Assembly (NCBI RefSeq): GCF_039555335.1
Contig: NC_092637.1
Location: forward strand, 3,498,472-3,562,471
From: Amphiura filiformis
Taxonomy: Eukaryota; Echinodermata; Ophiuroidea; Amphilepidida; Amphiuridae
Direction: 5' to 3'
DNA length: 64,000 nt
Positions 35,706 through 64,000 of this stretch are shown here, piece by piece. How positions within the stretch are numbered: the first letter of the stretch is position 1; the number at the start of each line of letters is the position of its first letter. The notes beneath the pieces are model-generated. The model did not search any database, was not told the DNA's origin, and worked only from the letters and a program-made list of their open reading frames with translations. Both the position numbers and the translations under genes were made by a program.

Positions 35706-35862
35706 AAGATTAAAATCAGGGAAAATATGACACAACCTCCAATGGGGGAATAACAAACGTATAAACGTATAAAGTTGACAACTCTTTTAACTTTGTTTAT
35801 ACGTTTTGTGTTATTCCCCCATTGGAAATCGATGTTGTGTCATTATTTTCCCTGTTTTTAAT
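35706..35862. mobile_element. Near-complete palindrome
   Basis: The left arm 35706-35775 and right arm 35790-35862 pair around 'aatgggggaataacaaacgt' and its complement, with a loop of about 14 bases. It is the only structure of note between 34400 and 36350. Confidence 0.75.
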
Positions 35863-36352: not shown

Positions 36353-36410
36353 ATGGATCTGGTGTTATTGGTGTGTATCATCGTCGTGTTTGGCTCCATA
36401 CCATACCGAG
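36353..36410 (+). CDS. LU gene exon 1: signal peptide
   Basis: Met followed by a hydrophobic run (L-V-L-L-V-C-I-I-V-V-F-G). The exon ends at cgag|gtatta, leaving one base of a codon. It lies between the arms of the TTAA-flanked element 32269-37344. Confidence 0.65.
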
Positions 36411-42400: not shown

Positions 42401-45400
42401 TAGACTGCATAATGATGCACTAGTTAAAAGCAGGGTCCACAATTTATAAGTTTTTTGCCGACAAAATTGTGTATTGGGGGTGTCAGCCCCCCCCCCCCCT
42501 CCATACCCACCCTCTAGCGACGGCCCTGGTCGATATCTATCGATTATTTATGATATTACGGATTTGTTACACTTGAGTGACTTTAAACTATTCTTTCTTT
42601 GGCGACAGTTTTGCAGACAATTATTGCAATGTGTGAGTTTCGTCATTTGAAATGCCGGTAGAGATCGATTTTTCATAAAAGTTTCGTCCTTAGTGTCACA
42701 GCATGTATATTTATGTCCACAGCATATTGGCAAACACACAGCCACGTTGCCGACGGCAGTCAAATTTTGCCGACAAAATTGTGTATTGGGGGTGTCAACC
42801 CCCCCCCCCTCCATACCCACCCTCTAGCGACGGCCCTGGTCGATATCTATCGATTATTTATGATATTACGGATTTGTTACACTTGAGTGACTTTAAACTA
42901 TTCTTTCTTTGGCGACAGTTTTGCAGACAATTATTGCAATGTGTGAGTTTCGTCATTTGAAATGCCGGTAGAGATCGATTTTTCATAAACGTTTCGTCCT
43001 TAGTGTCACAGCATGTATATTTATGTCCACAGCATATTGGCAAACACACAGCCACGTAACGGGGAAGATTAAAATTTACTGCGGAGGATCCTTGAGGAAG
43101 TTATATCATCTGTAATAATGAAATTTTTGGGTAAAAATTGCGGTAAAAATCATATCAACCTAAATATCTGAAGTCATATTGAAATGTTTCACTTAATCCC
43201 ATATAAAAAAAACATTCAGCGTTGTAAGCTCTACATTTGTGCCAAATTTGGTATATTTCATATAAAAAGAATGTAGGATTTCTCCAATATATTGTACAGT
43301 GCGGCTAGACGATGGTGATGGTTTTCGTCCATTTTCAGTAATAGCAATGTCACGCCAAAACAAATCAAGCTATTTCCATGAAAGTCACAGAATAAGTAGG
43401 AGACATATGTGTCATTGTATTGCACTTATTAAAATTAGATTCACTGTTGACTATATTTTTGATATTTTGTTTAAACACAGTCTAAATCATTCTAGGACAC
43501 CCTGTAGGGCTATTAGGCCTACATAGCTTTTTACATTCTTTCATTTCGTAAAATATTTTTCGACTTATTAAAAAAAGTATTAGAGGCGATGTATTATTTT
43601 GTAGGGCGCAGTCACTTATCCTCGCATCGCGCACTACATCTGTACAGCCTTTCGTGGATATATCACTTGTGGAGTTGAGGACGCTACTGTCTCGAACAAA
43701 CCAAGTAGACTATTTTGCTTCTGAATATTTTATAATACATTTTCATTTACAGTTTTGTGCTACAAATGTGTAGAAGAAATACCCAGCCAAGAATATGAGC
43801 ACGATTGTGATATTCCTGAGGTTACCAATTGCACTCAAGGCTGCGCTACCTATTTTTTAACCGATCCCAGTGACGGTTAGTTTGTTTATTAACCTTCGTA
43901 TGTATGTATGTATGTATGTATTGTTATCAATTACTGGTAATTATTTGACATATTAACCACGTCAGTATCATTCGTTAGATTATACGTGCTTAAAGTATAC
44001 ATCTATGCCATACCGAAAAATTACTAGTAATCTAATACAGTTATCTTAATATATTTCTATATTCATGAGTGATACTCCGTGTGCGTAAATAGTTGGTCCT
44101 CAAAGTAACTTGTCACAGGTATAGAGCATTCCAAGTAAAGACAGTTTGCACCATCTAAGATCTCTACACCATGTGTGCTTCAGATGGTACAGGGTCGTAC
44201 CAGGTAACACAGTTATGTCTCCTCTGGCACGTCATTTATAAAATGTCCCAGACCAAGGCGTTAAACACCGTACAAGACACAGTTCCACTTTAATTGTTAT
44301 CACCCGCAGTTATTGTTAGAGTGCAATAGGCCACCAAGTGACCAGTGGCGTAGCTAGGGGTTGTGGCGCCCGGGCCCCAGGATACATATTGGCGCCCCTC
44401 CATTCTTAAAAACAATTACTCGTGGAGTGCGCGAACATGTGTACACCTTTTGAGTTAATGAACTTCAGTGAATTTCGGTCTTAAATTGATCAAACAATTG
44501 AGTTATTGTTCACTTGTATTACTTAGAGGAGGCGCATAATTGATGCTAAATTTGTCAATTCGGCGCCCCTCGAAGGTGCCGTCCAGGTCACGTGCCCCCC
44601 CCCTCTGCCCCCTCTCACTACGCAACTGGCCACAAATTGACCAAAAATGCCGCATCACATCCGCCAACAACTTGTTTCCCTGCCGGTTTTGTCATGCATT
44701 TCGTCAATACCCTGCTTTTTTATCATTCTCTTTGTGTCGGTACACGTGTAGAGCTGTATGGGTATTATTTAGAAAAGGATTGCTATGGAGCGTACAATGT
44801 GACGGTACCAACCAATGCGTGTGTTGATTTCACGGCCGGTGGTGGATCCCTGGTGAGATACTGCCAATGTTCTAGAGACCTTTGTGATAGCGAACAAGGT
44901 AATAAACTCATCAAATGGGTAATAAGTTGGAATTGCATGCCTGAAATTGCTGAAAATTATGTTGTCTAAGACAATACAATATGCAAAGATATGTTTTGGT
45001 GTCACAATATTTAAATTAATCGATGCTTGCCTTTATTTCTAAACTCGTTTGTTTTGAACTACACAAGAAGTGCAATGCCGCGCCATGCCGGCGGCAGCTA
45101 ACATGTGATCGCGCACGTAAATGCAATATTTTTGCGTTCTCGCATAAATGATACACAGGTCGATTTGAAAATCGATTGATTGAAGTAGTCTGCGCAGAAT
45201 ACGCGAGTTTTGCGCGATTGTCCATGACACTATACTCTCATTCTTTCTTCTACTTCCACTTTTTTTTGTGTAAGAATTGTGGGTTTTGACATGAAGCTAG
45301 ACACTAAGAACGGTGAATCAAATAGTTTCAGCAACACTTAGGCACAGATCTCGGAATTGAACGCTATTATTGATCAAAATGGAATAAACCAAAGAAGAAG

Positions 45401-46290
45401 ACGACGAAGAAGGAAAAACAAAACAAAACAAAACAAAAACACCGATTATAATGTCCGTTTATATGACCGACCAATCGTACGAACAACACACGTGTACCAA
45501 AGAATAGTCATACTGTATGAAACTATTATACTGTTATTGACCTGGTTTTACACAAAACTCACAATACCCACACTAAACGCACGTTCACAGTTTGAATTAT
45601 TCTATCATGGTATTATATTTATGATGTATTATGATACTTTATTTTATTTAAATCATCACCTATTTCTGCTGTATTGTATTGTTATCTGTTTGATATTTTT
45701 AAGTTCAAAGGTCAAATAACTGTCATTAGCTGCTGCAGGTAAGAATATATTTTGCTTTCATCAAGATACATACATTTTAAGAAAATCTACACATTTTAAA
45801 CACACTGCAATGCTATAAAAAGTATTACGTATTCTCCTTTTATTCTCATTAATTCAGGAAACACAGATATATACACGAACATGCGACAAATAAGACGTCA
45901 TAAGTTCGAGTTAAAGAATTATGTATCATTGTATAAATTTTGTCAAAGAAATTGTAACACGGAATTTTCAAAACTCACAATCCTAATGATATAATATAAT
46001 ATAATATATATATAATGGACATATGTTTGCACACAACAGAGCTATTTAAAAATAAAGGTATTGGAAAATAAATTTGATCCACTCAGGCTAAAGGCGGAAA
46101 TGTTGAAAATTTAGTTACTACCGTTACTAACTTGCTCAGTACCTAAAATTATTGTTGAATCCCCATGTCTCCTGGATACTTGGTTGCAAATATACGAACC
46201 TTTTATATGTCCATTTTCTTATGTTTTTTATTGTTTTTTCCTCCTCATTTTTTGTTTATCTCAGTTTCGTTATTGCCGTCTTTAGCCTGA
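36353..46290 (+). CDS. Ly6/uPAR (LU) domain protein gene, five-exon model
   Basis: The model joins 36353-36410, 39209-39289, 43753-43875, 44752-44898 and, tentatively, 46265-46290. All introns are GT-AG and phase 1, and the joined frame has no internal stop (144 residues). It encodes a signal peptide (1-19), a Thr-rich linker of 27 residues that could carry O-glycans, and an LU domain with ten cysteines: L-C-Y-K-C at the start and C-Q-C-S-R-D-L-C at the end. LU proteins are three-finger, disulfide-bonded secreted or GPI-anchored proteins that act as surface receptors, ion-channel modulators or complement regulators; which role applies here is unknown. The last residue after the final Cys is Asp instead of the usual Asn. 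The last exon is weak: it adds only eight residues, too short for a GPI signal. The LU exons may instead splice onward to 52312 in the next gene. Confidence 0.7.
37349..38437. mobile_element. TTAA-flanked element, long copy
   Basis: TTAA at 37345-37348 (shared with the end of the 5-kb element) and at 38438-38441. The end 'gggggtactacacccctggc' is mirrored at 38400-38437. A nested palindrome lies at 38168-38349 ('ataggggcaaggaatccagt' and its complement). A short copy of the same family is at 63073-63327. It lies in intron 1 of the LU gene. Confidence 0.75.
38467..38878. mobile_element. hAT-like MITE
   Basis: The left end 'agtggcgtaactaggg' and right end 'tagttacgccact' are inverted. 'ggtagcgcccggggca' occurs near both ends, and the interior has repeated 'gcgcgaaacgcgcgaaaaaa'-type words. 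A relative lies at 44341-44632. The CAGTGGCG-type terminus is common in hAT elements; the assignment is by end sequence only. Confidence 0.6.
39209..39289 (+). CDS. LU gene exon 2: Thr-rich linker
   Basis: An 81-bp, 1-1 phase exon preceded by a pyrimidine-rich tract and 'caatacag', ended by 'tatg|gtgaga'. The encoded 27 residues are rich in Thr, Val and Ala with no cysteine (for example T-T-E-T-T-E-S). A mucin-like stalk or spacer is plausible. It is supported only by splice sites and frame, so it could be an alternative exon. Confidence 0.5.
40205..40745. mobile_element. Palindromic MITE with arms of 150 bp or more
   Basis: The inner arms, 40287-40370 and about 40500-40595, pair around 'atacgctggcgaagttacgt'. 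Outer arms around 'aaaactataacatatag' and 'atcaaaac' extend the pairing to about 40205 and 40745. It lies in intron 2 of the LU gene. Confidence 0.7.
40970..41100. repeat. Dispersed repeat, inverted partner at 57770-57880
   Basis: The block around 'gatcgacttttagcgcgact' is found inverted at about 57825-57845 in an intron of the downstream gene, with flanking similarity over about 100 bp. Confidence 0.6.
41306..41688. repeat. Inverted repeat, probable MITE
   Basis: 'gtacaccacgaatgagc' near 41313 is mirrored by 'gctcattcgtggtgtac' at about 41669-41686. The interior has no recognised gene. Confidence 0.5.
42453..43057 (+). repeat. Nearly identical 295-bp tandem duplication
   Basis: 42453-42747 and 42763-43057 differ by about three substitutions and by the length of a C run (12 against 10). 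The segment begins 'ttttgccgacaaaattgtgt' and ends 'cacagccacgt'. Flanks at 42429 ('cagggtccacaatttataag') and 43502-43590 match the MITE at 56695-57156, so the duplication sits inside a copy of that family. It is in an intron of the LU gene. Confidence 0.9.
43753..43875 (+). CDS. LU gene exon 3: first half of LU domain
   Basis: A 123-bp, 1-1 phase exon between 'catttacag' and 'gacg|gttagt'. It encodes L-C-Y-K-C, then D-C, N-C-T (also an N-glycosylation site) and G-C, i.e. cysteines 1-5 of the three-finger fold. The spacing fits the LU family. Confidence 0.8.
43898..43921 (+). repeat. (TATG)n microsatellite
   Basis: Short run of about six TATG units just inside the intron after LU exon 3. 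Confidence 0.9.
44341..44632. mobile_element. hAT-like MITE relative, intronic
   Basis: Begins 'cagtggcgtagctagggg' and ends near 'tcactacgcaactggc', with 'ggcgcccgg' and 'ggcgcccctc' words inside. It is related to 38467-38878 and lies 120 bp before LU exon 4. Confidence 0.55.
44752..44898 (+). CDS. LU gene exon 4: second half of LU domain
   Basis: A 147-bp, 1-1 phase exon between 'cacgtgtag' and 'caag|gtaata'. It encodes cysteines 6-10, ending R-Y-C-Q-C-S-R-D-L-C-D. The close pair C-x-C followed by a Cys five residues on is the LU signature. An N-V-T glycosylation site lies mid-exon. Confidence 0.8.
46265..46290 (+). CDS. Possible terminal exon of the LU gene
   Basis: Preceded by an unusually strong pyrimidine tract and 'tttatctcag' (46255-46264), and in frame with phase 1. 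It encodes V-S-L-L-P-S-L-A and a stop. There is no GPI-type tail and no polyadenylation signal close behind. It rests on acceptor strength only. Confidence 0.35.
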
Positions 46291-46656
46291 TTGGACAAGG
46301 TCTAGTCACATATCCGTATATAAAAAGTTATTGAATTTTGGTTTTAACCAACAAGCAACATTATCTAATTAATATATTAATTGCATTTTTAACAACATGA
46401 TTTGACCTTCACTATGTATGATTTGACCTACAATGATATAATATCGATAATCTATAGTGACCTGAATATAAAGGTAACATGTGCAATATGCTACAATCAA
46501 TTTACTTGTATCGATTACAATGCATTGATCAATTCTTTATTGGCCTTGTTTTGGATATTTAGTTGTAAATTTATCGAGGTTTTTAATTATTTTCCTATCA
46601 CAGCATCGAAGTTCGCAGTACTTTATGATTTGTGTACTAAACATTTCTTTGGTTAG

Positions 46657-46687
46657 CTAATTGTTCTTCTGAAAAACAACTGAAAAG
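46657..46687 (+). other. Possible 5' untranslated exon of the second gene
   Basis: Bounded by 'tttggttag' and a strong donor 'aaaag|gtgagt'. The next gene's start exon is itself preceded by a good acceptor ('cttattaaag', ending 48150), so a non-coding exon must lie upstream of it. This is a candidate, but its 5' limit is unknown. Confidence 0.3.
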
Positions 46688-46807
46688 GTGAGTACGTTTT
46701 CTATGTAGTTAATGATATTTGCATTTATATAGAAACTATGTAAATATTTTGGGGAACTTGAATTACACATCATCATGTACTTTATTTCAATCACATTCGT
46801 GTACACT

Positions 46808-47198
46808 AGGTGTGTTTAGACGGTAGCCTACATTTGAATGTTACTTACATGCGAGCCAGCAATTAAATTATGCTACAAGCGAGTGTGTGTCCACACGGGA
46901 CTTACTTGTAAGCCAACTCACTTGTAAGAGTGACCTTCACTGGTAACTTATGCCATGATTATGCACAGTCAGAATAGGATTGGGTCATCAAGGTCATGCT
47001 TAAAAGCGAGCTAACATGCAAGTCTTGTTCACACTGGCCTTACATTTGAATGTTACTCGCTACATGTAAGATATCTTACATGTAAAATCGTCACTTGCAT
47101 GTAGCTACATGCGAGTGCGTTTAGACGGGCACTACATACAAGTTTACATTTGAATGTAGTTACAAGCGACTTTACAAGCGATCGTCTGAACAAGCCTA
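46808..47198. mobile_element. MITE with motif repeats
   Basis: The ends 'tgtgtttagacggt' and 'cgatcgtctgaacaag' are imperfectly inverted. 'acatttgaatgt' occurs three times and variants of 'acatgcgag' or 'acaagcga' are scattered inside. It lies between the two secreted-protein genes. Confidence 0.6.
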
Positions 47199-48156
47199 AT
47201 GTATTAATTTTTCATATCGATAATTTTATGACAGCTTTCTCTTTCATTTTAATAGTGTACTTCCCCATTAAGTTTGTATGCCATTAGTAAGCTATCCTTA
47301 TTCATCATTTATCTACCTGAAGAGAGATTATATAAAAAAGAGCGCGTTATTTTATTAGAAATAAGATGGAAATACGTCTTTCGAATTCAGGTTACCAGAC
47401 TGCAGATCGACTGTGGTATAAACCCAAATTAAACCTATATTTCTGAGGTACGATTGGAGACGAACTCGAGATTTATGCCAGGTCTCCAAGCGGGTTTTCA
47501 ATTTACTAGACCAGCGAATGGCGAGCTGCCGTTTTAATCATAAATAGAAATTATTTGTTGATTTCATTTTATTGTGTTTAATTTTTAGGTAACGGGGGGT
47601 AAAACTGCCACAAAGTGACAACGAATATAGTTTTAAGTACCTAGTGTAATGATAACTCAAGATAATTTGGTTTAAGGCTACACGAGGTATTGTTGGTCGA
47701 AGCAGCCAAAAGAAAAAAAAATCGATTTTCATTATTTAAATCAATGTACGTCGTATTATTGAAAAATCACACTATGATGTTTTGCAAAAGTTCATTCTAC
47801 AAATCATATGCGTTGTACTTAATTTATTGTTGTTAATGAGTTATGTACAAACGTGTTGTTGTTTTAGCCCTCTTTACAACATAACTCAACAATATCTGTG
47901 ATATTTGAATTCTTTCACATGCAATTGTTGACAAAGCTCACTACCATTCGCAAGATGCTGTGAACTGTAAAATCGCAACAGTTTAAAATAGTTGCTAACC
48001 TTGAAATAAAGGGTTCACAAAATACCCACTTAAATTACAAAACATTTTTGCATAACTTGACATACATTACGTTGATTTGAAAAATATTAAAAAAAACATT
48101 ATAACAAATATTTTTTTTTGCCATATTGCTTTTACTTTTTCTTATTAAAGGAAAAG

Positions 48157-48217
48157 ATGAAGATCTCGATTGTATCCTGTCTGATTTTCACGCAACACTG
48201 GTTACCCACTGTTTATG
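48157..48217 (+). CDS. Modular gene exon 1: signal peptide
   Basis: Met-Lys followed by a hydrophobic core (I-S-I-V-S-C-L-I-F). It ends 'tatg|gtaagc' in phase 1. A strong acceptor ends at 48150, seven bases before the ATG, so transcription starts further upstream. The one leftover G joins CT of exon 2 to give Ala. Confidence 0.8.
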
Positions 48218-51200
48218 GTAAGCTGTCTTATATAAACACGGATTTTAAAATAATTTGCAACACCTGTTAAGTTGACAATCAATACCTGTTTCCATTATCC
48301 CGTTTTTAATATCGGGTTTCCCGGAGTATTTCGTACTTGTCATAGTGCAGTTATGTCCACGGCAAATTCACCGGGACCTTTCCAGCCATAAACCCGCTTA
48401 GTGAAGATTAAACCGATATAATGCAGTACTAAACCATTATAGTAATCTATTGTCCAATGCAAATTTATTACCACGTGATAATATTAATCCAATGAGCGAT
48501 AGAATTGTCCGCTACGGTCGACTAATCCAATCAATAACGACGCTATTGACATGTACGAGCGGAGCTCCACTGACCGAGTTTTGGGGGTATTTTCACTGGT
48601 TTGCTGTCATTTACTCATCAAGGCGGTCCCCCGTTATTATAAGGACTATGTTAATTATTTAAAGATTGACATGTAGAAAATAAACCATACCTGATTGACA
48701 GAAAGTACTAAATTTGTACCTATTACGGTTTCGTGACACCAATCTTCCAAATACGACCAAGCCAGGGCTGCCCGGTGAAGCAAAATGTGCATTGGAATAA
48801 CACGGGAGTTTGGGTAGATGGTAGGATTTCTTTCTCATAAAAATGTATGGTCCCCCGTTTTTAAAGCTTGTACCGGGTTTGAAATACAGATATTTTGAAA
48901 AGAATAAGTACTTGAAACATAGAGCAAGTACTAAAATCATAGCTTTTATACTTTTGGATATATGACGCTAACTAGTTCATCTCCTATAGCTACAACACAG
49001 CGCTACCAGTAGGGTTCAAATGCCTATTGTGAGTGCCCCTGTGTTGTGTGCATACATGTAGTTAACAATAACTGCATGATGTGTCATTGATTTTCGTTCA
49101 AAAGATATTTCTATTCCATCCCAACAAATCTTAAGTAAGTAAGAAACTCCAGTTCAATTTCACTATTGTGCCACTAGATGTCAGTTTTGTAGCATTATAT
49201 TTCGTGTTTGGGTCAAATTTATCTGAAAATACAAAAGTAGTCCCTTCCACAAAAGCAAAAGCAAATTCGTCTCTTGTCATTGAAATTCAAAATGGTTTCA
49301 ATTAATGCAATGATCGAATAATGAAATTGGTTTTGAGTTTGTGCGTCACGTCACGTCACGTCGTTTGACGCCGATGCGCGCATCGTTTCTGCGCATTGCA
49401 AGTCGGCGTGACGTCAGGTAACGACATCTCAGGCAGGGGCTATTTTAGAAGAAAAAAGTCACTGCACGTTAGCAAACGTAAAATCTAAAAGATCAGCTAG
49501 CGGAGACAAGCTTTAGGGGAAGGGGTTGCTGGCAGAGAGGTTGTCTCCCCTCGAGTTCTGTAAACTTTTACAAATCACACGTTACAATCATGCATTTTAC
49601 TGACTCATTTTTTACGTTAAGCGCTGAGAGCTGAGAGCACATCACTCAGACATACCAAATTGCATTCTGAATACGAGGAATAGCCTTAATATCAAATAGG
49701 AAGCAATTTTCAACTTCTACGCTACTCAAATTTCACTCACCGGAGCGCTTTCACCGGGTCAAATAATTTTGAATTTTTGAAATTTTATGACAAATTATAT
49801 TAAAAAATGATATTTTTGACATTAACAATCCCCGAAGTAAAGTTTATCAATCTAATGATATGCACTTAAAGTTGAAAATTGATTCATGTCTGGTTCACTA
49901 ATGTATTTCACTAATTTCATTTTCAATTACCTACAGCTCCATGAAAGTACACACTAGGATCATAAATGTTATTAAGTTTATGGTATTGATGGTATTGATA
50001 TGCAAAAAAACGAATACAATCTCTGCAAAATGAATAAAATGCGCACAGGTGCCTACAATTGCACAAATTAATAGCTGTAAAATATAATAATAATATAAAA
50101 ATCTTTTTGATTTACTTAGAAAGGTAATAGCTTTCATTTAAAATGTCATTCCATTTAATTGAATTGTCATTATTGAAAACTCCGTAAAAGTACACAGAAC
50201 CTCTTTATTACATGTTGAATGAAATGCACACGTGTCCCTACCATCTTTTAACCGGTCGCACAGTAGCGTAAAGTTCTCACAATGTGAATGTGATAAGATT
50301 TCTGAAACTTAAGTGATGCAAAGGTGCATAAGTTGTCGGCAAATTGCATACAAAAAGTTGCATACAAATTCATTACAAAAGATTAAACACACTCTTCATG
50401 AACTAAATGTCTATAGTGCTCAACTTAAAACACTAAATGCTCAGTCAATAAACAGGGTGTTTATTTTCTACAAGCAATATACAGGGTGAGTCCAAAAAGT
50501 GCAATAGTGCAAAGAATCCATCTTTATTTTATAACCAGATTGAACTTTTAAGATTTAAAACACATGATATATTCATTAGTGGCCTTGTGTGAAAAAACGA
50601 AGTAATTAGCACTTGCCGTTCTGTTTTTATGACACATTTTACAGCGATACCCAATTTTAATGATTGTCCACGAGATATCTAAACTTTGAATGTCAGCACA
50701 CTATACTATTATACTATTTGGAACAACTGCCATTTTCTTAACCTCATTGGCACTGAAGTAAAATAGAGTACCCAAAGTTGTATTGTCCCTGGTCTTGTAT
50801 AAGTAGAGGAAACATTGCTTTTATTTGTTGTTATTTTCCTATTTACCCTTAAATTAAAAATGTTCATTCTCTATAAAAGAAACATACAAATATATGGGCG
50901 GGTTTTTCAAATGTCGAAAAGAATGTGTGCAAATTGAAGTGGTGTGAAAAATTGGAGTTGGAGTTAGGTGAGGTATGTTTTAAGTTAAAGCCAGTTTAAG
51001 ATATGGTGTCCTTATTTCGCATTGTGTGCTCTCATTCAAATTATGGTGCCTCGTGGACAAAGAGTTAAGATGGGTATCGCCGTAAAATGACTCATAAAAG
51101 TTTAAGGGTTCACTTGCTTTTTTACAAGTGGTGTATATTGAGTGTGGCATTTTCAATAATGGGAAAGTTCAACATGGTTCTTACGTGAATATTGATTCGT

Positions 51201-54200
51201 TGACCCTTTTTTACTCACCCTGTATACGTTTAATACCAAAATGATTTGATGTGTTCATCATTAAGTGTTTATGTGTTTAGTTTAGCGTTGAAAGTGTTCA
51301 ATTTAGTACGGTATTTACCTCTATGTATACGTTTAGCTTGTAAGCAGAAGAGTTTAAACCGGCTGATATCACATGCATTTGAAAAACAATCAATTTGTTT
51401 AAATAATTATCAAATGGTTAAGCAGTGCTTTTTCTACTAACATATCGCAAACAGGCCCATCACGAGGATTTATTGGGGGGGGGGGGGGGGGGGCTGGACT
51501 GATTTTGAAAAGGTGGCCCTTTTTTCAAAATTTGCACCTTTTTGGATTAGGACGGATTTTGAAAAAGTGGACTTTTTTTTCCAAAATTTTGACCTTTTTT
51601 GACCAAGAAGGCTTAAAAGATTTTCGCTCGCTACGCTCGCAAGCGGGACTTTTTGGGTTAAAAACGGGGATTTTTTTGGCCATTTTGGGATGGGGGCGGT
51701 GACCAAAACATTGGGAGGAGAGGGCGTTAGTAGAGGCGTTGTTCTTGATTTCCCCTGCCAATTGAATGTTTGACTGATCCCCACAAACTATACAATATAT
51801 GATTTCCGGACTAGATCAGACTTACTTTGTGGAGGAACTTCTTTAATTTCTTAGTCATTTTTCGGGCTGAAACTAGTATAGAACTATTTTAAGCACGGAT
51901 TTTTTATTCTCACTGCACGGATTCCTATTCTCACTGCACGAACGTGCCAGGAGGCACGTTAAAATAGCCCCTGATCTCAGGTGTACTTGCAAAGGCTTAT
52001 GGGATTTACCGAAAGGTTATTTGTCTGCTTGAAAGAGCATTTCGTGATTCTAAAATCTTCTCTATATCCACGAAAAAAATTCCCAAATTGCAAGTTAAAT
52101 ACATGCATGACAGTAGGTCAGTGTATTGCATTTCTGTCTGTTGCAAAAAAAAAAAATACAAATTGGCAATGTCTTTGTCAGCATGGTCGAAGACCCGAAT
52201 TTCTGAAATAATTTCTGATAATATAACCATCTAAGCCTGTTTTGGAGTAAGTCGGCGAATGAAACTGTGGATCACGAAATGGTCCTTTTATGCTTTCTTT
52301 TATTTTTTCAGCTCCGCCTTACAGAAGTGACACTAAGCCCAATGCAAATGACTGGGAAACGCATTCTGCAACAGCAGGCACAGCTCATCATGGACTGGCC
52401 ATAACAAGTGTTTTGGCCAATAATAATGTAGACTCAAAATCAAACTTAAGACTGAAAAGAAGCAACTGTTTTTCGTGCATGTGTATGGAAATCACCCAAG
52501 CTTGTGGGCCCGACAATGTTTGTGTTGATAAAGAAGACGGATTCTCGGTAGGAGCACATTGCGTTCACAAAAATGCATTGCAGCACAAACAATCCTCCTC
52601 CACTAGAATCACAGGTAACAACAATGGCGGCGGACAAGCAACATTACCAGGTGCTCAACTGCCGACAGGAAGTTTTACCGGAAATAGTGGTCCAGCCAAT
52701 AATGGACAGACTAATGCCCAAAACGGTGCGGTAAATAATGTTGGAAATATCGCAACAAATGCTCAAATTGGTGCTGCAAATAGCGCCACTTCAGCGAATA
52801 CAGGTCAAAATAGCCACAATGCTCCTGTAGTTAACACTGATCCATCAAGCATGAATTTGCCTCGGAGCAACTGCTTTACGTGCCAATGTATGGAAATGAC
52901 TCAAGCATGTCCTCAAAATTACGGATGCGTTGATAAAGAGCACGGTTTTTCAACCGGACCACATTGTGTTCACAAAAGTGTATTTGACGGGTTGGTGGGA
53001 AGTAATGGGAATATCCAAGGCGAGTCGGTTGGTACTGCTACTACATCTGTAATCCAGCCACCACAAGAAGCCAGTAGCGCATCTGGTGTTAATCAGCCTC
53101 CTCAAGAAGCCAGGTCGTCTGCTGCCGCGGTAGCAACGTTTCCTTTCGGAACAAACGGTATGAATTAGGAATGAAAGGGACATTATAAAACAACATTAAG
53201 CCACTCATAAGCTTTTGACCTTAGTTGACTATTTATATGACATAATATTTATAGAAACACTTCGAAACTTTTTTTTTTACTTTAAATCTTTAGGGATTAC
53301 CACACCACTCTTCGCCATACATACATTCTCCCAGCCACATTTCCCTAACATAATATGAAAAAAAAAAATTAAATTAATTTTTGCAGAGGCGCCGGCAGGG
53401 TTCGAACCCACGCTGCACTGAGCAGTACTATACAGTATTGACATAACACCAGCGCCTTAGACCGCTCGGCCGTAAAGGCTTGATGATGTCATGATGGAAA
53501 TTTAAAAATATAATCGCAACTTCATTACTTCAACATACCACGTGACAAGCAAAGACAGAAAACGTACCATATTTTGGAATTTTATTTGTTTAAAAACATT
53601 AATGTGTATTAATAGCGCTCAATTGTTGATAACTGCGTGTTCTATATACAATAAATTAGCCTACACACAATAGGTTTCTCATACATTATATCGATTTTGA
53701 CTCGCACGTGCTCGCCGTATACTAAAAGTATGTCGGTGTGGCGTGGCCTACCATTTTTCTTGTAGCTTCTTGTATACACGTCGATGTTTTCATCATTTAT
53801 AAAATAAATCCACGTTAGACCCCTAATTTTATTTCAGGAAATAAAAGATTAGATTTCCATAAAAACGAAACAGTAATCATTGGTTTGGTCTAATGTCATC
53901 TTTACATGGAATTTTCAAGGTTTTTTCTATCGCCATTCTCGCTCAATTAAAAAAATATTTTGGCGTATATAAAATTGAAATAAAATTCTCTGCCGCATAA
54001 ACGACATCAAATGTGCCACACTTGGGTATCACGAATCATTATATATGATGTGCAGTTAATATTCATATTTTCTTTTATACAGAGGATGCTTCAGTTTTGA
54101 CAGGAAAAATATTTTCTTGAAAACCCTCTCACTCGGTTATTTCAAAACGGTAACCACGCTTTCCTAAAATGTGCAATAAATTAGCATTAACATTTTTCTT

Positions 54201-57200
54201 ATTCTAACAGCAAGCGTTTCTAAAATGCAGTATGGCGAAATATGGTGTAAGGGATTACGCAGTTCACAATGTTCATGTACATCAGATACGCTTTATTTTA
54301 TGTCACTTGCCGTGTGTAACATGAAAGGTTATGTCATCCATTACGATTTGTTTTGAAGAAATACGAGGTGTAGCGTTAAAATCTTTACTAGATCTGATAT
54401 ATATACATATACGTATAAAGAAATGTTTTTAGATGAATATGTAGAGAAAATAAATACTTATTTTTCTATCGGACATGGATTGTTCATAATTGCTGTAAAA
54501 GTTAATGATATCCGCGTATCCGGTTCTGCTGTGTATCCCGCATACACCATGCCACCAAGAATACCTTTACATGTACCTCTTATGTACATCGAAAACCTCT
54601 TTATAGTTTTTTCAATGCTAATCTCGATAGGTTAATCAACATAATGTTGGATAGTGCACGTTGATTTTTTTCCTGTTGTTTATTAATTTAGTGTTTTTTG
54701 TTATGTGACCAAACAGGCTGTCCGGTTCAGGAATGTACCGATGCTCACGATCCCCAATGTGGAACAAATGGCCGTACATATCAGAATATGTGTCAATTCA
54801 TTGCAGGCGTGTGCAAAGACAACACATTGGGACTACTACATCCTGGAGGGTGTGCACTTGGTACGTTAGTCACCACATCCAATTTGGTACTATATAACTA
54901 TCGGTGCCCGGTTAGGCACCGATGAATCTTAACATCGCTCACAGGAGATGTAATACATTGTATCAAGCATAATAATTAATATTAGCATAGTGTTATTGTG
55001 TTTCATTTAAATAAAAAGCGAATGCACTGTACAAATGTTCAGGGTACGATAAAAAAAAGTACCATCGGTACCTCTTCGGGCACCGATAGCGCTATAGGAC
55101 CAACAATATGTTGTACCTTACCGTACGTATGATTGATTGATGAGGTCATATGTGACATTATTGGTCATTGTTCTTTGAAGAGCATACTTTTGATGAATGC
55201 ACCCTCTTTCTTGTAACAGTCAAATAGCACAAATCAATCCGGATGTTTACCACAATTATTTTAAAGGGACTTTTACATTTATTATACTTCCAATCTATTA
55301 CTAAGTGGTATTGCATATGTGTTGAAAGACAACGTAGGGTGTGTTCGTGTTTATCACTAAAATATTACATTGTAATTTTCTGGCAATTGGTCAGATATCC
55401 CTTGATGTGCAGGATGACCTTTTTTTTTAACCGTAATGCACTTAAAACGGATTTTCACATTCAAATACGTCAGAGAAAATACGTCAAAATAAAGTAAGAG
55501 AAAAGAAACTCTGACTTAAATTTGCTCTTGACCTTACAGGTTTGCATGTTGCCAAATCCCGCTGTGGTGCATGCATGTGCGCTGATGAATTTCCAGGTTG
55601 CGAGAACGGGTTTACCTGTATGACTGGGCAGGGATTCACTAATGAAGCTAGCGCATTATGTGTACACAATTCGGTATTTACCAGTAGAGTTAATGGGAAC
55701 ACAGATGCGACGAGAACAGGAATCCAAGGTGTACAAAGAGATGCAGCAGTCGAGATGGGACCTGGCGTTCGAGGTGTACAAAGGACTGTTGCAAACAAAG
55801 AAAACGAGGTGGTTCCCGAAAAAGGTATATATATTATTTCAACACAGTCTCCTTATTAAAATGATCATAATTATTCATTCTATAACTGGTCTTAAAATGA
55901 TCATATCAATCATTTTGTGCAGTGATAGCGCCATCTGTAATTAAGTTTATGCAACATTTTTCAATGAGGCTAGGTGAAGGCCGGGGAGCTATCGGCCGTT
56001 AAAAAACGCTCAAAAACAATATTGTTCAAGGTTGGCCCGCAGGGTTAATAAGAAACAATATTTCTCCAAAAACAATAGCGATTAAATTCAAGCTATAGAG
56101 GGAAAGGCCAGGAAGAATGTGGGAAATTAAGTGGTGAAAATAAACAATCAAAACAAATTAGAAATCGATAAATAAAGTTACGCCTTGTCTTTTTGCCCTG
56201 CGAGGCTATTATATATTGGAACTCCAATAGTTGCAAGTCCTCACTATGGAACTTTCCAGCCTCATATGACATATAATAGTATATCATCTGAATTCAAACG
56301 ACATTCAGTCGAGTTATGGTTGATTAAACTTTGTCCATAATAGACGTTTGGGCTGTAACTGAAAATCAAACTTGTCGTCTTTACGACAAGATCGTGGTGG
56401 ACACAGGCGTCATCTTTGTATCAAGGACAAGAGGTTGGCAGACGTAGCAAGGAAAATGTTATCTTATACTGTTATCTTATACAACTGGTTAAATCAAGAG
56501 TATGAATGTTTTGTTGAGGCTTTTGGAATAGAAGGGCAGTGTTCATTTTAGGATCAGCAATGTTAACGAGTGGATGCAGTCCGTAACGATCTTTTTTATC
56601 TTTCTCAGAGCCAAAAGGATCTGTCATTTATTGCATCAATCATCACAGTCTTTTTTCTCTTTTCTTTACGAGAACATGTACAAGCATATATATAGGGTCC
56701 ACAAGTTATAAGTTCCCCCCTAAATACTTTTTAGAATAAATAGACAAATATGTAAAAAGGTATGGGTAGCCTTATTTGTTTTACACCTACGGACCAAATT
56801 ATAGTGTCACACGTCATTGCGCTCAGTCACAATGGTTCATTGTGTAAAAAAATGAAACCGTTTCAAAAAGTGCTAAAAGTTGCATCTGAGTCAATATGAT
56901 TCAACTCTCAAACAATACAGTCAGTCAGGTCTATTTATGTGTTTGTTTAAGAAAACCTGACTGCTATGCACTCAGGTGCAACTTTTAAAACGGCCTCTTT
57001 TCTTACACACTTAACCACTGTTATGTTTGACGCTACAAATTAGTCCACATGTGTAAACAAATAGGGCTATACATACCTTTTTAAATTTTTACATTTCGTA
57101 AAATATTTTTTGACTTATTTTAAAAAGTATTACGGGAACTTATAAGTTGTGGACCCTATACAATGAATATATATCACAATACAATAAATAAGAATTAAGA

Positions 57201-58342
57201 AGTCAAAATGAAATTAGCACATGAACCACAAAACAAGCCATTACAAATTGACATTATTCTATTTGTTACTCCATGTATTAAGACAGCAATTAACTTCTCA
57301 GTTTCTCTACGGGATTTAAGAAATTACACAAAAGGTACATAAATTAGATTTATCAATACCAATTTGTCCGAAACGATCTGAACTTCTTCGATGCACGATA
57401 ATATATTACCATATTCGTCAAAATTGTGCCAAAAGTGTATGCTTATGGAGATAAATATTTCGGTCGCATTTTTAGTATTTATTTAGTTGAATCACTGTCA
57501 GGATAATAATCATATACAAGTACTTCAAAATCCCAGTTAAGCACGAGGAAGAATATTATTTTATCTTCTAATCTCTATATTATTTGCGATGTGTTTCATA
57601 TCCTACAGAGCCGTCCACTGGATTTAAATGTTCAGTGCAGGGAGAAAACATGTGTCAACACAAAGGCTATTGTGAACCAAAGTTTGGTACTTGTCTTTGC
57701 CCTTGGAAATACAAAGGAACAAAGTGTGAAACGCTCGGTGAGTTTAAATACTAAATTTTCCTTGGAGGCTTTGCACTCTGAACGTTACTGGTCAACTTCT
57801 ATTGTTATGCATAGTCGCGCTAAAAGTCGATCGATACATGTTGAAATCAGTACAATTCAGAGATATACCGAGTACGATGTAAATATTGCGATAGTTGTAA
57901 AAGTTGTCAAGAAATATAATGTAACAATAGCCATCGACTGACTAGCGTTCTACGTGTAAGCTATATGATTTGCAACATTGCTATAATGCTACTTATATAG
58001 ATGCATTCATATGGTGTTTTATGCCAAAGGCGCAATGCAGATGTGATATGAAAGACAAAAGCACATCATAAAGAAATGTTATGAAAGTAATCTACATAAT
58101 GGTCACAGGTCAACTTTCATTACTGACCGTACCGACAATCGTAATGTTGAAGCAGTGCTATTGGTTTGGTTGATGTACACAGGTGCCAAGAAACTCAAAA
58201 GTAGATATTGTACAAACATCGATATTAACCTTCTTTCGTTTGTTTTCTTTCAGTGCCACATCCGCAGTCTCCATGTATCACTGATCCATGCCCAGGTGAT
58301 AAAACATGCAAGGTGCGCGACATTGGTCGCACATGTGAATAA
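48157..58342 (+). CDS. Secreted modular protein: three novel Cys modules, Kazal, EGF
   Basis: Exons 48157-48217, 52312-53157, 54717-54860, 55540-55824, 57609-57737 and 58254-58342 join by GT-AG, phase-1 introns into 1554 bp (517 residues) with no internal stop. In order: signal peptide (1-20); a possible furin site R-L-K-R (67-70); Cys module 1 (73-104); an Asn/Gly/Ala/Gln-rich linker; Cys module 2 (208-239); a second linker; Kazal domain (304-348); Cys module 3 (359-391); EGF-like domain (453-485); and a four-Cys tail (496-516). The modules share C-x2-C-x-C-x6-C-x5-C-x12/13-C-V-H. No transmembrane or GPI segment is seen, so it is probably extracellular. Kazal and EGF domains suggest protease inhibition or matrix and signalling roles, but the Kazal P1 position would be Asp, not Lys/Arg. 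I know no protein with this architecture. The 5' untranslated region is unresolved. Confidence 0.82.
49622..51975 (+). repeat. Composite dispersed repeat, copy B
   Basis: Collinear with 14720-16570 (see that entry), but with extra insertions, among them a mariner-like element at 50482-51222 and a poly-G run at 51474-51492. It fills much of intron 1 of the modular gene. Confidence 0.7.
50482..51222. mobile_element. Mariner-like non-autonomous element
   Basis: The ends 'cagggtgagt' and 'actcaccctg' are inverted and flanked by TA on both sides. The length is 741 bp. The interior has no transposase frame. The left end alone is also present at 15364. Confidence 0.65.
52312..53157 (+). CDS. Modular gene exon 2: two Cys modules
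   Basis: An 846-bp exon behind 'ttttattttttcag'. It encodes an N-terminal spacer, the R-L-K-R site, modules 1 and 2, and two low-complexity linkers (Asn/Gly/Ala-rich, then with two P-P-Q-E-A repeats). The modules are 60% or more identical over their length and share the ends C-V-D-K-E-x-G-F-S and C-V-H-K, so they arose by internal duplication. It ends 'aacg|gtatga'. Confidence 0.88.
53388..53480 (-). pseudogene. tRNA-Leu-like (type II) pseudogene
   Basis: On the minus strand it has 'ggccgagcggtctaaggcg' (D arm and A box of a leucine tRNA type) and 'gtgggttcgaaccc' (T arm and B box), with a long variable region. The acceptor strands pair poorly, so it is a decayed tRNA or SINE head, in an intron of the modular gene. 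Confidence 0.6.
54717..54860 (+). CDS. Modular gene exon 3: Kazal domain
   Basis: A 144-bp, 1-1 phase exon ('ccaaacag' before, 'cttg|gtacgt' after) encoding exactly one Kazal domain. The hallmark C-G-T-N-G-R-T-Y-x-N-x-C is complete, and six cysteines lie at 304, 309, 317, 328, 335 and 348. The residue two after the second Cys (usual P1) is Asp, so trypsin-type inhibition is not suggested. The short first loop and the C-x6-C step fit the invertebrate/follistatin-type variety. Confidence 0.9.
55540..55824 (+). CDS. Modular gene exon 4: third Cys module
   Basis: A 285-bp, 1-1 phase exon ('gaccttacag' before, 'aaag|gtatat' after). The module (359-391) keeps all six cysteines, the Gly-Phe before the last one and the C-V-H end, but is otherwise diverged from modules 1 and 2. 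A second half contains two copies of a G-V-Q-R or G-V-x-R-G-V-Q-R type repeat and an acidic end, without cysteine. Confidence 0.85.
56695..57156. mobile_element. MITE with 26-bp TIRs, TA target
   Basis: 'gggtccacaagttataagtt' (56695) is mirrored at the right end (about 57131-57156), with TATA on both sides. It is possibly a Tc1/mariner-type element by target. A partial, internally duplicated copy lies at about 42429-43590. Confidence 0.75.
57609..57737 (+). CDS. Modular gene exon 5: EGF-like domain
   Basis: A 129-bp, 1-1 phase exon ('atcctacag' before, 'ctcg|gtgagt' after) encoding one EGF-like domain. Six cysteines lie at 453, 461, 467, 474, 476 and 485, with the C-L-C pair and the K-G-T-K-C end. 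There is no Asp/Asn pattern for calcium binding. It is a typical shuffled EGF exon. Confidence 0.9.
58254..58342 (+). CDS. Modular gene exon 6: C-terminal tail
   Basis: Behind 'tgttttctttcag'. It encodes 28 residues with four cysteines (P-C-x4-C-x5-C-x8-C-E) and the stop at 58340-58342. It looks like the opening part of an EGF-like or related disulfide domain cut short. Possible polyadenylation signals are ATTAAA near 58519 and AATAAA near 59034. Confidence 0.8.
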
Positions 58343-58766
58343 TAGGCCGATAGCTGTTTGAGGTTTTATACAGTCATAACACTGTTACGAAGCAAAAAGC
58401 AAAATAGTACAATTTTAGTACTTTTCAGATCATGGCCGGATGCGTTAATAGGTTAAGTTACTGAATCACACTATGGGCCACAATGACCTCATCACAATGA
58501 CATAGTTCAATAACGTCAATTAAACAATCATAGTGCAAAATTTGACCTCAAGTTGCAGAGAATGAGTTTTTGTACCCAAATTGTCAAAGGTAATTTAATG
58601 AATGTGAAAATGCAGTGGTGTTAAATAACTGTGCCCAGATAGATGAGCATGTTTTGGATCATAGTGTCATCTTTATAAGCTGGTGACAAGTTTTAAAGCT
58701 GTGGAAGCATACATTTCGAAGATATTGCAGATCCAGTTTCAATGGGCACACTATAATTGAATATGT

Positions 58767-59370
58767 GAATACAAAAGCCACCCAAGTCCATACTTAAACC
58801 AAATTGAGTTAAGCATGGTAAAGTGTTGCTTTACATAGGCCTGTCATATGTATGACAGAACAACTCAAATTCATCCTCTGTGTCTATTGAGCATGTGAAA
58901 AATAGCATGTATGAAAGAATCACCCAATTCCATGATTTGAGTCTTGTAACACATTGATTAAAATCCAGTATGTATAAAAGTCCACTTGTAACACATTCAT
59001 TGCTAGAGAGTGACTTTTGAAAAAAAATGGGTTTAATAAAGGAAAGTGTGTGGTTTATATTACATGGCAGAATGCTTATCAACATTATACATACCTGTGC
59101 GCTTTATTTTGTATTATCTTACTAGTGGTAATCTCATTCTAACATTGTTGTCTTTGTATATGATTAAAAAACCACCCAAGTCCAAAATTTAAAATGAACC
59201 CCACGAAGTCCCTGAAATGCTAATCGTCATACCTAATACAGGTTAATCCACTCATTTGCACGTAAAACTTACCATATTGACCAGGTAAATCTAACTGAAG
59301 GAATTAAAATGATACACAGGTTTTTCTCTCAAAATCACTTCCCATGGACTTGGGGTGGCTTTTGTATTCA
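58767..59370. mobile_element. MITE with 25-bp TIRs
   Basis: 'gaatacaaaagccacccaag' near 58767 is mirrored at 59345-59370. 'ccacccaagtcca' also occurs inside (59167). It lies in the 3' flank of the modular gene, perhaps in its 3' untranslated region. Confidence 0.65.
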
Positions 59371-60289
59371 TGTTTTCAATTATGGAATGCGCAGAAGTAT
59401 ATTTATCCGGCCATCATGTTTGTACACCTGCTGACATTGGCTGAAAAGGGCAAATAACTAATTCGCAGTATGTACCTACTCTGCTTCTTACCTGAAGGTC
59501 GTTAACTGTTGTCGAATCCTCTTTCAGTGGATGATGAATAAGCCAAATCAGCATTGGAAGTGTGCAATGCATTGTGGGACAGTTTGTGCAGTTTTGGGAC
59601 ACTTTGCCAATTGCCCAAAACCCAATTAACAGAATTTAACAAATGTCTTTTGAGAACGTGACATATTTATGTACTATGGTACAGGGAATCAAAATAAGTA
59701 AAACTAAAAGTATTTCGAAACAGTCTTTCGTACTGGTAAATTAGTCTATTAGTTTGTATTGTGACTATGATACATTTTGGGTTAAGGGGGAATGTATCGT
59801 TGAATATGTTTAAATGACAAAAGTTGATTATTGATAAAATTATGTTTAAAATGTAATCTTTCTTTTACGTCAAATTTGATTAAAATCCTTCAAAAGTTAC
59901 ATAACTTTTGTATGAAATGATGGTAAAAAAGCCGTAAATTTCTTATGTATTTCCTGTATATTTTGAAACTTTTGTATTCTATTGTTTTATCGTATGTATT
60001 GTATTGTTTTTGAAATACGCCAATTTTAGGTAGTTTGTTCCAATCTCATTTGCAATAATTTGAAGCTAAAATTGTTCAAAAGTACTACTAATTAATGTTA
60101 ATTAACACACATTTTTTACTAATTAAACTTAAATGGCTGATATCTCGAAAACACAGTTTTGACCATGTGACACCGTTGCAGACATCCTATCTGGAAAAGT
60201 ATATGGGCTACAACCTTCAAATGTGGCCAAGATGTTGCTATCACTGAAAGCTACAAGTTGTATCAAAATGATTTTCATGGGGATTTTCC
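59371..60289. other. No gene seen
   Basis: AT-rich sequence, no coding exon or repeat structure recognised. Confidence 0.5.
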
Positions 60290-60785
60290 ATTTGGTCTAA
60301 AACCCTTTGGTCTAATATCCATTTCGTCTATATCCATTTCGTCTAAGTCTATAATAGGTCTATATCCACTACGTCCAATAATCATTTGGTCCTATAACCA
60401 TTTGCTCCGATAACCATTTGGTCCGATAAACATTTAGTCTAATAACCATTAAGTCTAAAACCATTTAGTCTAACAACCATTTAGTCTAATACCCATTTGG
60501 TCTACAAACCATTTTAGTCTTACAATCATTTAGTTTATTAATAAATAGACGAAATTGTATTAGACTAACTGGTTACTAGATCATACGAGTATTAGGCCTA
60601 ACGGTTATTAGACCAAACGGTTATTAGACCAATCGGTTAAAGAAGAAATATTAGACCAAATGGTTTTTAGACTCTATGGTTAGTAGACATATCAGTTATT
60701 AGACCACACAATATTAGACTAAATAGACATTAGACTATATGATTATTAGACTAAGCGGTAATTAGCCTTTCTGGTAATAGACCAA
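60290..60785. repeat. Mirror-arranged minisatellite (about 16-bp unit)
   Basis: Degenerate units of the type 'aaccatttagtctaat' run in plus orientation to about 60545. They are followed by units of the complementary type ('attagaccaaacggtt') to 60785. The whole forms a repeat-built palindrome. A few units of the second orientation reappear at 61603-61660. Confidence 0.85.
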
Positions 60786-61602
60786 TTCGTCGGGTGCATC
60801 ACATACTGGCCTATCTTGATTTTTTTACTTTTTTGAGAAAATTGGTATATAGATTTTATTTACGGAGTTCTTCCAACACAACAAATTACAGACTTCAATT
60901 TTTCCTAGATAATTAGTTATAAAATGTTACATTTAAACTATCTATGATTTTGACAAAATACGTGTTTCACATACTGATCTATCTCGAAAAAAACAGGCAT
61001 TTCTAGAAAATCGCAATTGAAAATCTTCGTATTAAGTTTACCTTTCTATAATTTAATTAGATGAAGGATTTTCATGAAAGTGGTTTAAAATTAAAGCATA
61101 TACTTAACAGATTTAGTAAAGTGGAATCTTTAATTATATTTACGTATGCAATATTGCTTAAAACTACACTTAAGTAGTAGTTCTGTATGTAAAATCGTTA
61201 ATTTCCCAATATCGTATTGAAAGTGCATTACATACTGGTCTATCTCGAGATAGACCAGTATGTGATGCGTCTAAAGTCACGTCATTGTTCGCGAAATCGA
61301 GATAGCCCCAAGATAGACCAGTATGAAATGCAATTTAAATACGATATCGGGAAATTATATATTTTTACATACAGAACTACAACTTTAGTGTAGTTTTAAG
61401 CAATATTGCATCGGTAATATAATTCAAGATTCCACTTAAATAAATCTGTAAAGTATATGCTTTAATTTTAAACCACTTTCATTAAAATCCATAGTCTAAT
61501 TAAATTATAGGAAGATTAACTTAATACGAAGATTTTCAATTGCAATTTTCTCGAAATGAGTGTTTTTCGAGATAGACCAGTATGTGATGCGTCCGACGAA
61601 TT
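60786..61602. mobile_element. Multi-level palindromic element
   Basis: The ends 'ttcgtcgggtgcatcacata' and its complement at about 61583-61602 enclose two long inverted arms (about 61008-61228 and 61318-61555). The centre is a perfect 32-bp palindrome at 61231-61262 (catactggtctatctc and its complement). The 'atactggtctatct' word occurs six times, at both ends, in both arms and at the centre. No gene is present. Confidence 0.8.
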
Positions 61603-61973
61603 GAATATAGACTAAACTGGAATTAGACAAAATGGTATTAGACCAAATAGCAATAAACCGTTTTCATTGATAACGAATGAGGCTGACACATCAAAATTCA
61701 GCACAAAATTCAAATAATTTGTACATGTATTGTATAACATGTCATTAAATATACATTGTGGAAATTTTAAAAGTATCTAATATTAGATTTGGAAGAGGCA
61801 AGCTTTTCAATAAACATCAAAACTGATGGGTACCAATCATTTTGATACAGTTTGTATGCAATGAACCAATGAAGAAAAAAGTTCCACCCATGGGAACATA
61901 TTTTTAATGACCATGACCAAATCAATAATATTGTTTTTATAAAAAAACTAAATCAAATATTAACCCTCTTTAA

Positions 61974-62626
61974 GGGATCTGGAATGAGCGTTTTGGGCGT
62001 TTCGACAGTATTTTTTGTGGGGCATGAGAGCACATCAGACATATCGAATTGCATTCTGAATACGAAGAATGTCTTTCTGATATCAAATAATTTTCATTTT
62101 TTGAAATTCACGATATAATACAAATTTTATGACAAGTTATTAAAACTTGATATTTTTCACATTTTTGATATATAACAGTCCTCGAAGTAAATTTTATAAA
62201 TCTAATGAATCTTAGAGTGTATGTAGCTGGGAGGAAAAGCCGACGATCAATTGAAAATGTTGACCTTTCATATTGAATTTTTTTTTCCCCAAAAAGACCT
62301 ATTTTTTGTTTGGTGTTTTGGGAAAAAATCCATATCTTCAATACGAAAGGTCAACATTTTCAATTGATCGTCGGCTTTTCATCCCACCTACATACACTTT
62401 AAGTATAAATCATCAGATTTATAAAGTTTACTTCGATTACTGTTAAATATCAAAAATATCAATTTTTAATCATTTGCCATAAAATGTGTATTACATTGCG
62501 AATTTTAAAAAATCAAAATTATTTGATATCAGAAGGACATTCTTCGTATTCAGAATGCAGTTCGATATGTCTGATGTGCTCTAACGTCCCAAAATAAATA
62601 CTGTCTAAACGTTCATACCCCATCCC
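61974..62626. mobile_element. TTAA-flanked long-hairpin MITE, copy 2
   Basis: Full-length copy of the family at 9109-9769, with TTAA at 61970-61973 and 62627-62630. The arms pair along nearly the whole element, with the centre near 62300. Confidence 0.8.
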
Positions 62627-63072
62627 TTAAAGCCATATTATAACATTTCTTTAACAATAGATTAGTATTTATTTTCCATAAAATGTTAGCTTTTACCGTC
62701 AGGTATGTCCCTATTTAATTTTGAGCCGAACAAGTGAGGTAAAGCAAAGAAAATTGGAATTTACTAATAGCACCAATGCATGTTACTCCGGCGATTGTAA
62801 TACAGTACGATCCTCTGGCGCGTGTGTGTCCAGCACGCCGTGTACGTAGTACTGTGTTATGAAAAACACACACGACTAATATTTCCATCGTAATAATAAA
62901 ACGACGGTTCCATCGGTTTATTCAAAATCACGGATTTTGACAAAACTACAGCACATAAAGTCTTGATTTTTGCAGAAAATCTGTATTTACTAAAGTATAT
63001 TACAATCGTGTAAAACCTGAATTAAAATGTTTTTTAGGGGGTTCTTCTCAGCAAATGTTATTATGGCTTTAA

Positions 63073-63327
63073 GGGGGTACTACACCCCTGCCCAATTTTG
63101 TGCCTATTTTTGCATTTTTCACAAAAAAGATATGTATATTATAGGGGCAAGGACTACAACTACTGCACTGGAAATTTTAAATCAATAACTACTTACTTTG
63201 AGTTGCTGAATTTTCAGTACAGAAGTTGTAGTCCTTGCCCCTATAATATACATATCTTACTCGTCACTCGTCGTTTTGAGAAAAATGCAAAAATAGGCAC
63301 ACAATTGGCCAGGGGTGTAGTAGCCCC
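63073..63327. mobile_element. TTAA-type palindromic MITE, short copy
   Basis: Starts after TTAA (63069-63072) with 'gggggtactacacccctgcc' and ends with its complement followed by TTAT. The inner arms around 'ataggggcaaggactacaac' pair. It is the same family as 37349-38437. Confidence 0.75.
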
Positions 63328-64000
63328 TTATTGGTACATGAACTGTTTCATTCTAGTTCGTTGTATATGTAAGAAAGTGCAGATTAATTTACTTTTCATT
63401 TCAAGTCTCTAGCATTGGTAGTTTTTGAGATATATTGTCTGCAAGCTTATAATGTGCGGAAACGGGTCATATGACCCATCAAATGCAATGTATTTTAAAT
63501 TCAATTCTCTTTGATGTTACTATATAGGTCTATGTAATACCAACTTACCACAAAGCATAAAAAAAAACATTTTTTTTTTGCATTTTGTGAAGAAATTGGA
63601 CAAAGTGGTATGCAAAATGAAGGGGCAAAGCTTCTCCTTTTATTGGTGGCATCGGTATCAATGTAGCCTACATGCTTTTAAAGGTAACAGCCAAAAGGTG
63701 GTACATCACTGATGTTTTAAATTAACTTCATTTTGTGAAAGCTTACTATCAACGGATTTCGTTAAAAATTTAGATATGTTACACATTAGGAAAATAATGT
63801 TGATATGTTAAATGGGAATAAGTGGTTCCTGGTTTCTTTTATGACTTCATGAACTTGGTGCTATACACCTATCAAAAAACGAACTGTTCAGGACATGGAG
63901 TGATGAACTTATTTATGCACTTCATAAATTTGCAACAAAAAAAGAAGAGGGGTACTGATGAAAATCATGGTATTATACCCCCTTAATAAATTGCAGTCTC
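63328..64000. other. No gene seen
   Basis: AT-rich sequence with short frames only. The last bases ('ttataccccctta') may be the edge of another copy of the TTAA family. Confidence 0.45.

Follow-up and report, generated by a model that had tools for sequence, protein, structure and literature searches.

Do three cysteine-rich stretches encoded by one gene of Amphiura filiformis (Echinodermata; Ophiuroidea) represent copies of a single folded unit, and does that unit belong to a domain family already described? The gene lies in a 64,000-nucleotide stretch of contig NC_092637.1 (NCBI RefSeq assembly GCF_039555335.1, positions 3,498,472 to 3,562,471 of the forward strand), hereafter the window, and all coordinates below are positions within it. 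A first-pass annotation had pointed to an unrecognised six-cysteine module present three times in one secreted protein. Our analysis suggests that the three stretches are probably copies of a single small extracellular module held together by disulfides and set in a secreted mosaic protein together with Kazal and EGF-like units. The best reading is that this module has not been described before.

The six-cysteine pattern and evidence for its translation

The pattern C-x2-C-x-C-x6-C-x5-C-x12/13-C-V-H, with Gly-Phe ahead of the last cysteine, was found exactly in all three copies. Counted from first to last cysteine, and on the plus strand throughout, the copies occupy 52467..52562 (copy 1, residues 73-104, with V-H after the last cysteine), 52872..52967 (copy 2, residues 208-239) and 55563..55661 (copy 3, residues 359-391). 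These are the very residues of the spliced gene model at which the three stretches had originally been placed. Every copy opens with a basic residue followed by Ser-x-Cys, and the module as a whole, which begins at [KR]-S-x-C and ends a few residues beyond C-V-H, is about 40 residues long. Eleven columns are invariant in the three-copy alignment, namely a serine two residues ahead of the first cysteine, the six cysteines, the G-F pair and the V-H pair. The earlier observation that the cysteines are conserved while the rest diverges is borne out, all six being kept in each copy.

The pattern appears to be confined to this gene within the window. A strict regular expression, slightly relaxed from the pattern (C-x2-C-x-C-x6/7-C-x4-6-C-x11-14-C), gave three matches in the six frames of the whole window, all on the plus strand and identical with the three copies, and none in 100 mononucleotide shuffles. 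A looser expression gave five further overlapping matches, which fall in a single poly-Cys stretch on the minus strand (31165-31302). A profile built from the three copies scored 103.7, 105.6 and 88.2 bits on copies 1, 2 and 3, self-matches by construction, and detected no convincing fourth copy in the window, the next best frame reaching 8.3 bits (E 0.28).

The likeness between the copies goes beyond the cysteines. Copies 1 and 2 are identical at 21 of 35 non-cysteine positions, which none of 20000 cysteine-keeping shuffles equalled. Copy 3 has an identity of 27-28% with copy 1 and shares 7 of 34 such positions with it (144 of 20000 shuffles as good) and 8 of 34 with copy 2 (31 of 20000). Recent duplication could in part account for how alike copies 1 and 2 are, but not for the resemblance of copy 3. 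Copies 1 and 2 may be the product of a duplication within the exon that they share, and copy 3 would then be a more distant copy, carried by an exon of a kind capable of shuffling.

Two lines of evidence bear on translation. At 301 residues, the stop-to-stop frame that contains copies 1 and 2 surpasses anything in 200 windows simulated under a first-order Markov model, whose longest frames had a median of 137 and a maximum of 226. In the proposed frame, the proportion of synonymous differences (pS) between copies 1 and 2 is 0.71 and that of nonsynonymous differences (pN) is 0.18. In the two shifted frames of the same strand, the corresponding values are 0.21 versus 0.27 and 0.34 versus 0.29, with 2 and 4 stop codons. 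The excess of synonymous differences between the two copies is confined to the proposed frame, which indicates that this frame is translated and under constraint.

Gene model and putative fold

The spliced model, which was built from sequence only, joins six plus-strand coding exons in one frame and yields 517 residues followed by a stop; all five introns are phase 1 and have GT-AG ends. The predicted protein consists, in this order, of a signal-like start, a stretch ending in R-L-K-R, module 1, a linker, module 2, a second linker, a Kazal domain, module 3, another linker, an EGF-like domain and a four-cysteine tail.

The coding part of exon 1 (48157..48217) begins with the ATG at 48157 and ends in phase 1 at a donor, GTAAGC, that starts at 48218. 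It encodes a signal-peptide-like N-terminus with a 9-residue hydropathy maximum of 2.8 from residue 3, from which we infer a signal peptide and hence a secreted protein. Exon 2 (52312..53157; phase 1-1, 846 bases with an open frame) lies between the acceptor ...TTTTTTCAG and the donor GTATGA, and contains the propeptide-like stretch, copy 1, an Asn/Gly/Ala-rich linker, copy 2 and a further linker. Exon 3 (54717..54860; phase 1-1) encodes the Kazal domain, and exon 4 (55540..55824; phase 1-1, 285 bases with an open frame) encodes copy 3 and a cysteine-free linker. At the limits of all three exons the GT-AG sites fit and the frame is kept. Thus two copies share one large exon and the third has its own exon after the Kazal exon, as the first-pass annotation had described, and the span that it gave, 52312..55824, runs from the start of exon 2 to the end of exon 4. 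Exon 5 (57609..57737; phase 1-1) encodes the EGF-like domain, and exon 6 (58254..58342), the last coding exon, contributes four cysteines and the stop codon TAA. Each internal exon, exon 4 included, is flanked by phase-1 introns and would therefore be of class 1-1.

The exons beside the module exons encode known extracellular modules, which argues for a module of the same kind. Exon 3 scored 33.4 bits with Pfam Kazal_1, clearly above the cut-off of 21, and its PDB matches include ovomucoid, agrin and follistatin. Exon 5 scored 21.8 bits with Pfam EGF_2, just under the cut-off of 22.1, and matched Notch EGF repeats in the PDB by phmmer (E 0.00054). For the four-cysteine tail of exon 6, Pfam searched at E up to 1 returned nothing. 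The introns were also searched for extra exons of phase 1-1 with at least two cysteines, an acceptor rich in pyrimidines and any of the donor forms tested; the sole candidate, 54211-54315, was not module-like and was excluded from the model.

The 103-residue linker between modules 1 and 2 contains 20 Asn, 13 Gly, 13 Ala, 11 Ser and 10 Thr. Despite this Asn-rich linker, the 517-residue protein has no N-glycosylation sequon, while shuffles lead one to expect 6.6; zero was reached in 3 of 10000 shuffles.

The distribution of cysteines suggests self-contained units. Residues 9-72, 105-207, 240-303 and 392-452 are free of cysteines, so that long gaps surround copies 1 and 2 and another follows copy 3. 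Because there are six cysteines per unit and no spare cysteine neighbours, those of each module most likely pair internally, which would give three disulfides. Prediction of the structure of a single module, proposed in the first-pass annotation as a check, was run in AlphaFold with three alignment rows. It yielded models for copies 1 and 3 with a mean predicted local distance difference test score (pLDDT) of 58.8 and 54.4, respectively, and did not determine a fold. In both low-confidence models two strands, which carry Cys5 and Cys6, precede a helix. If this arrangement is correct, Cys5 and Cys6 would lie on two paired strands with the Gly-Phe loop between them.

Searches for relatives and alternative explanations

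Pfam searches admitted matches up to E 10 for exons 2 and 4 and for the three modules by themselves, and up to E 1 for the three plus-strand frames of about 49000-64000 and one plus-strand frame of 34001-48097 in which stops were written as X; single exons were searched as well. Exons 2 and 4 and the isolated modules matched no family, and none of the other searches gave a family for the module. Exon 2 had no match in a PDB sequence search at E up to 10, and the three-copy profile retrieved nothing significant from the PDB, its best matches being a zinc finger (E 0.19), a Kazal inhibitor (E 0.34) and a cyclodipeptide synthase (E 1.8). With E up to 10 allowed, Foldseek returned 19 matches for one low-confidence model and 14 for the other, all with E of at least 3 and none at or below 0.001. 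Among the matches listed, no literature title or abstract opening describes the module. The module thus stays as unrecognised as it had been called, and a match to an established domain family, the result named beforehand as speaking against a new unit, came from none of the Pfam, PDB and Foldseek searches.

Some resemblance to i-type lysozymes was nevertheless seen. The first five cysteines of the module follow the spacing class C-x2-C-x-C-x(4-6)-C-x(4-6)-C, which is common to the PDB i-type lysozymes 2dqa, 4pj2 and 8bbu. In one explanation, which we consider improbable, the module descends from the N-terminal part of an i-type lysozyme (destabilase family), shortened and no longer active, and has been put to new use as a small disulfide unit. 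The profile-profile score against the three lysozymes was equalled by 13 of 200 cysteine-keeping column shuffles, and the lysozyme hidden Markov model (HMM) scores of copies 1, 2 and 3 by 203, 36 and 139 of 1000 cysteine-keeping shuffles. In the HMM comparison only copy 2 is below 0.05, which is lost across three tests, and the profile test stands at 0.065. The resemblance beyond the cysteine pattern appears not to be significant, leaning towards similarity and proving none. The module also had no Pfam match of any kind at E up to 10. Lysozymes of this type have a larger cysteine set than the six of the module, which is about one third as long and lacks the remainder of the approximately 120-residue enzyme. 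Neither AlphaFold model has a helix at what we take to be the position of the lysozyme Glu helix, where pLDDT is below 50 (residues 14-17 in one model and 1-17 in the other). The catalytic dyad of destabilase is Glu34/Asp46 according to PMC10126035, and the module is without this dyad, the Glu being aligned in copy 3 only and the Asp in no copy.

The protein could also be a polyprotein precursor from which the modules are excised as separate six-cysteine antimicrobial or signalling peptides. The basic residue and Ser-x-Cys with which each copy opens would suit such excision, and so would R-L-K-R at residues 67-70, ahead of copy 1, which by its consensus is presumably a furin-type site. However, a multibasic site is present at copy 1 only, copies 2 and 3 having a single Arg or Lys, and none was seen by eye after the modules. 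The Kazal and EGF-like domains and the linkers favour a structural mosaic over a precursor, and we regard processing into peptides as a slim prospect.

The chances are poorer still that the module is a von Willebrand type C (VWC) or related subdomain which has degenerated to its C-x2-C-x-C core. VWC domains have about ten cysteines and a C-C-x2-C end. The VWC domain of collagen II (1u5m) reads C-x2-C-x-C-x6-C-x4-C, near the start of the module, with which it shares the C-x2-C-x-C-x6-C core. The C-C-x2-C end is present in the 1u5m sequence but not in the module, whose six cysteines include no adjacent pair. With this single template sequence, the profile-profile score was equalled by 147 of 200 column shuffles and the scores of copies 1, 2 and 3 by 159, 645 and 602 of 1000 shuffles. 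No upstream cysteine lies within 64 residues of copy 1 or 103 of copy 2, and the module had no Pfam match. A VWC relationship therefore receives no support from the comparison.

Metal binding by the conserved Cys and His (C-x2-C-x-C ... C-V-H), rather than disulfides only, would be in keeping with the His two residues past the last cysteine, invariant in all three copies, and with the zinc finger as top PDB match of the profile, but is very unlikely, as that match is not significant, the even number of six cysteines suits three disulfides, and the cysteines of secreted proteins, of which this is apparently one, are normally oxidised. Assignment as an EGF-like domain was rejected: such domains have six cysteines with C4-x-C5 near the end, whereas the C-x-C of the module is Cys2-x-Cys3 of six, and the modules had no Pfam match.

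Several observations count against a single, self-contained extracellular module and temper our preference for it. Copy 3 is less isolated on the Kazal side, starting 10 residues past the last cysteine of what is a complete Kazal domain (residues 348 and 359), and is followed by 61 cysteine-free residues. Compared with the other two copies, copy 3 has a pS of 0.65 and 0.83, near saturation, and a pN of 0.46 and 0.49; for this copy it is therefore mainly the cysteines, G-F and C-V-H that reveal constraint. The confidence of the AlphaFold models is too low for them to show a fold, and both runs share the three copies. Relatives were also missing from four non-animal collections: the three-copy profile gave 40 pattern stretches in viral contigs and 80 in prokaryote genome contigs, with none confirmed in either, the copy 3 exon had no pattern match in viral contigs, and exon 2 had no match among phages and plasmids. 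These blanks say little, since none of the four collections would be expected to hold a relative of an animal gene. Finally, the proposed role in extracellular matrix, mucus or a mineral layer is read from the architecture only.

On balance, the proposal of the first-pass annotation that the module is a real folded unit stands as probable, given the repetition and a frame with marks of translation and constraint; the fold itself is not settled by models of such low confidence. Only tentatively do we suggest that the module belongs to an undescribed, mobile class 1-1 family of six-cysteine extracellular modules, which would have been shuffled into several secreted matrix or surface proteins of one animal lineage and have its own disulfide fold. 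Small lineage-specific cysteine-rich units are not rare in the secreted proteins of invertebrates. Should the unit turn up in further genes, it would add to the known modules, perhaps confined to a lineage, and the three-copy profile is enough to start the search. If it is private to this gene, it would be one more repeat in a secreted protein.

Surroundings of the gene, possible role and known systems

The window contains several other features. An open frame on the minus strand (22857-24044) encodes a rhodopsin-family receptor (Pfam 7tm_1, 141.6 bits), closest in the PDB to bombesin and gastrin-releasing-peptide receptors (phmmer E 2.5e-39). A partial retroelement reverse transcriptase lies at 27755-28765 on the plus strand (Pfam RVT_1, 66.6 bits, profile positions 107-203 of 205). 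Two possible plus-strand exons at 43755-43877 and 44751-44897 look Ly6/three-finger-like by eye and have no significant Pfam support. Rfam identified a tRNA at 5957-6028 on the plus strand (40.3 bits), which ARAGORN did not report; the long repeat after it reads Tyr-Leu-Phe-Ile or similar in two open frames. By eye, 42450-43060 is a direct duplication of about 290-300 bases, the copies of which each begin near GCCGACAAAATTGTGTATTGGGGGTGTC, and three long inverted-repeat elements lie at 61000-61600, 62000-62620 and 63060-63330. A fragment resembling the second of these was seen, also by eye, near 49640-49700.

If the three stretches are indeed modules of a secreted mosaic protein, they may act as rigid binding beads with flexible Asn/Gly/Ala/Ser-rich strings between them. 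Several weak binding sites in one chain would then permit multivalent binding in the extracellular matrix, mucus or a mineral layer, which we regard as the most likely role; the protein would perhaps belong to the matrix or to the body surface. The Kazal residue aligned with the ovomucoid Leu, which we take to be the P1 reactive site, is Asp. An Asp there makes it unlikely that the Kazal domain strongly inhibits the common serine proteases, such as those of the trypsin or chymotrypsin type, and its role may be chiefly structural, as it is in agrin or follistatin. Agrin and follistatin are alike to this protein in that they are matched by the Kazal exon. The differences are the 64 cysteine-free residues ahead of the Kazal domain, by which a follistatin-type partner domain would be absent, the added six-cysteine modules and the single EGF-like domain.

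Closer to the organism, Kazal proteins with low-complexity blocks have been reported from the tooth matrix of sea urchins (PMC2614417) and agrin-like Kazal proteins from the skeleton of brittle stars (PMC4336488). Judging from the available portions of these two papers, the echinoderm skeleton proteins resemble the protein studied here in being secreted and in having a Kazal domain and, in those of the tooth, low-complexity blocks (PMC2614417, PMC4336488). The same portions describe no such six-cysteine module in either the sea urchin tooth or the brittle star Kazal proteins, and the Pro/Gln/Asn-rich stretch of the brittle star paper belongs to a C-type lectin and not to the Kazal proteins (PMC4336488). 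The composition of the low-complexity blocks differs as well: the tooth Kazal proteins are, as far as the accessible text goes, Ala/Pro-rich and acidic, whereas the linker here is Asn/Gly/Ala-rich.

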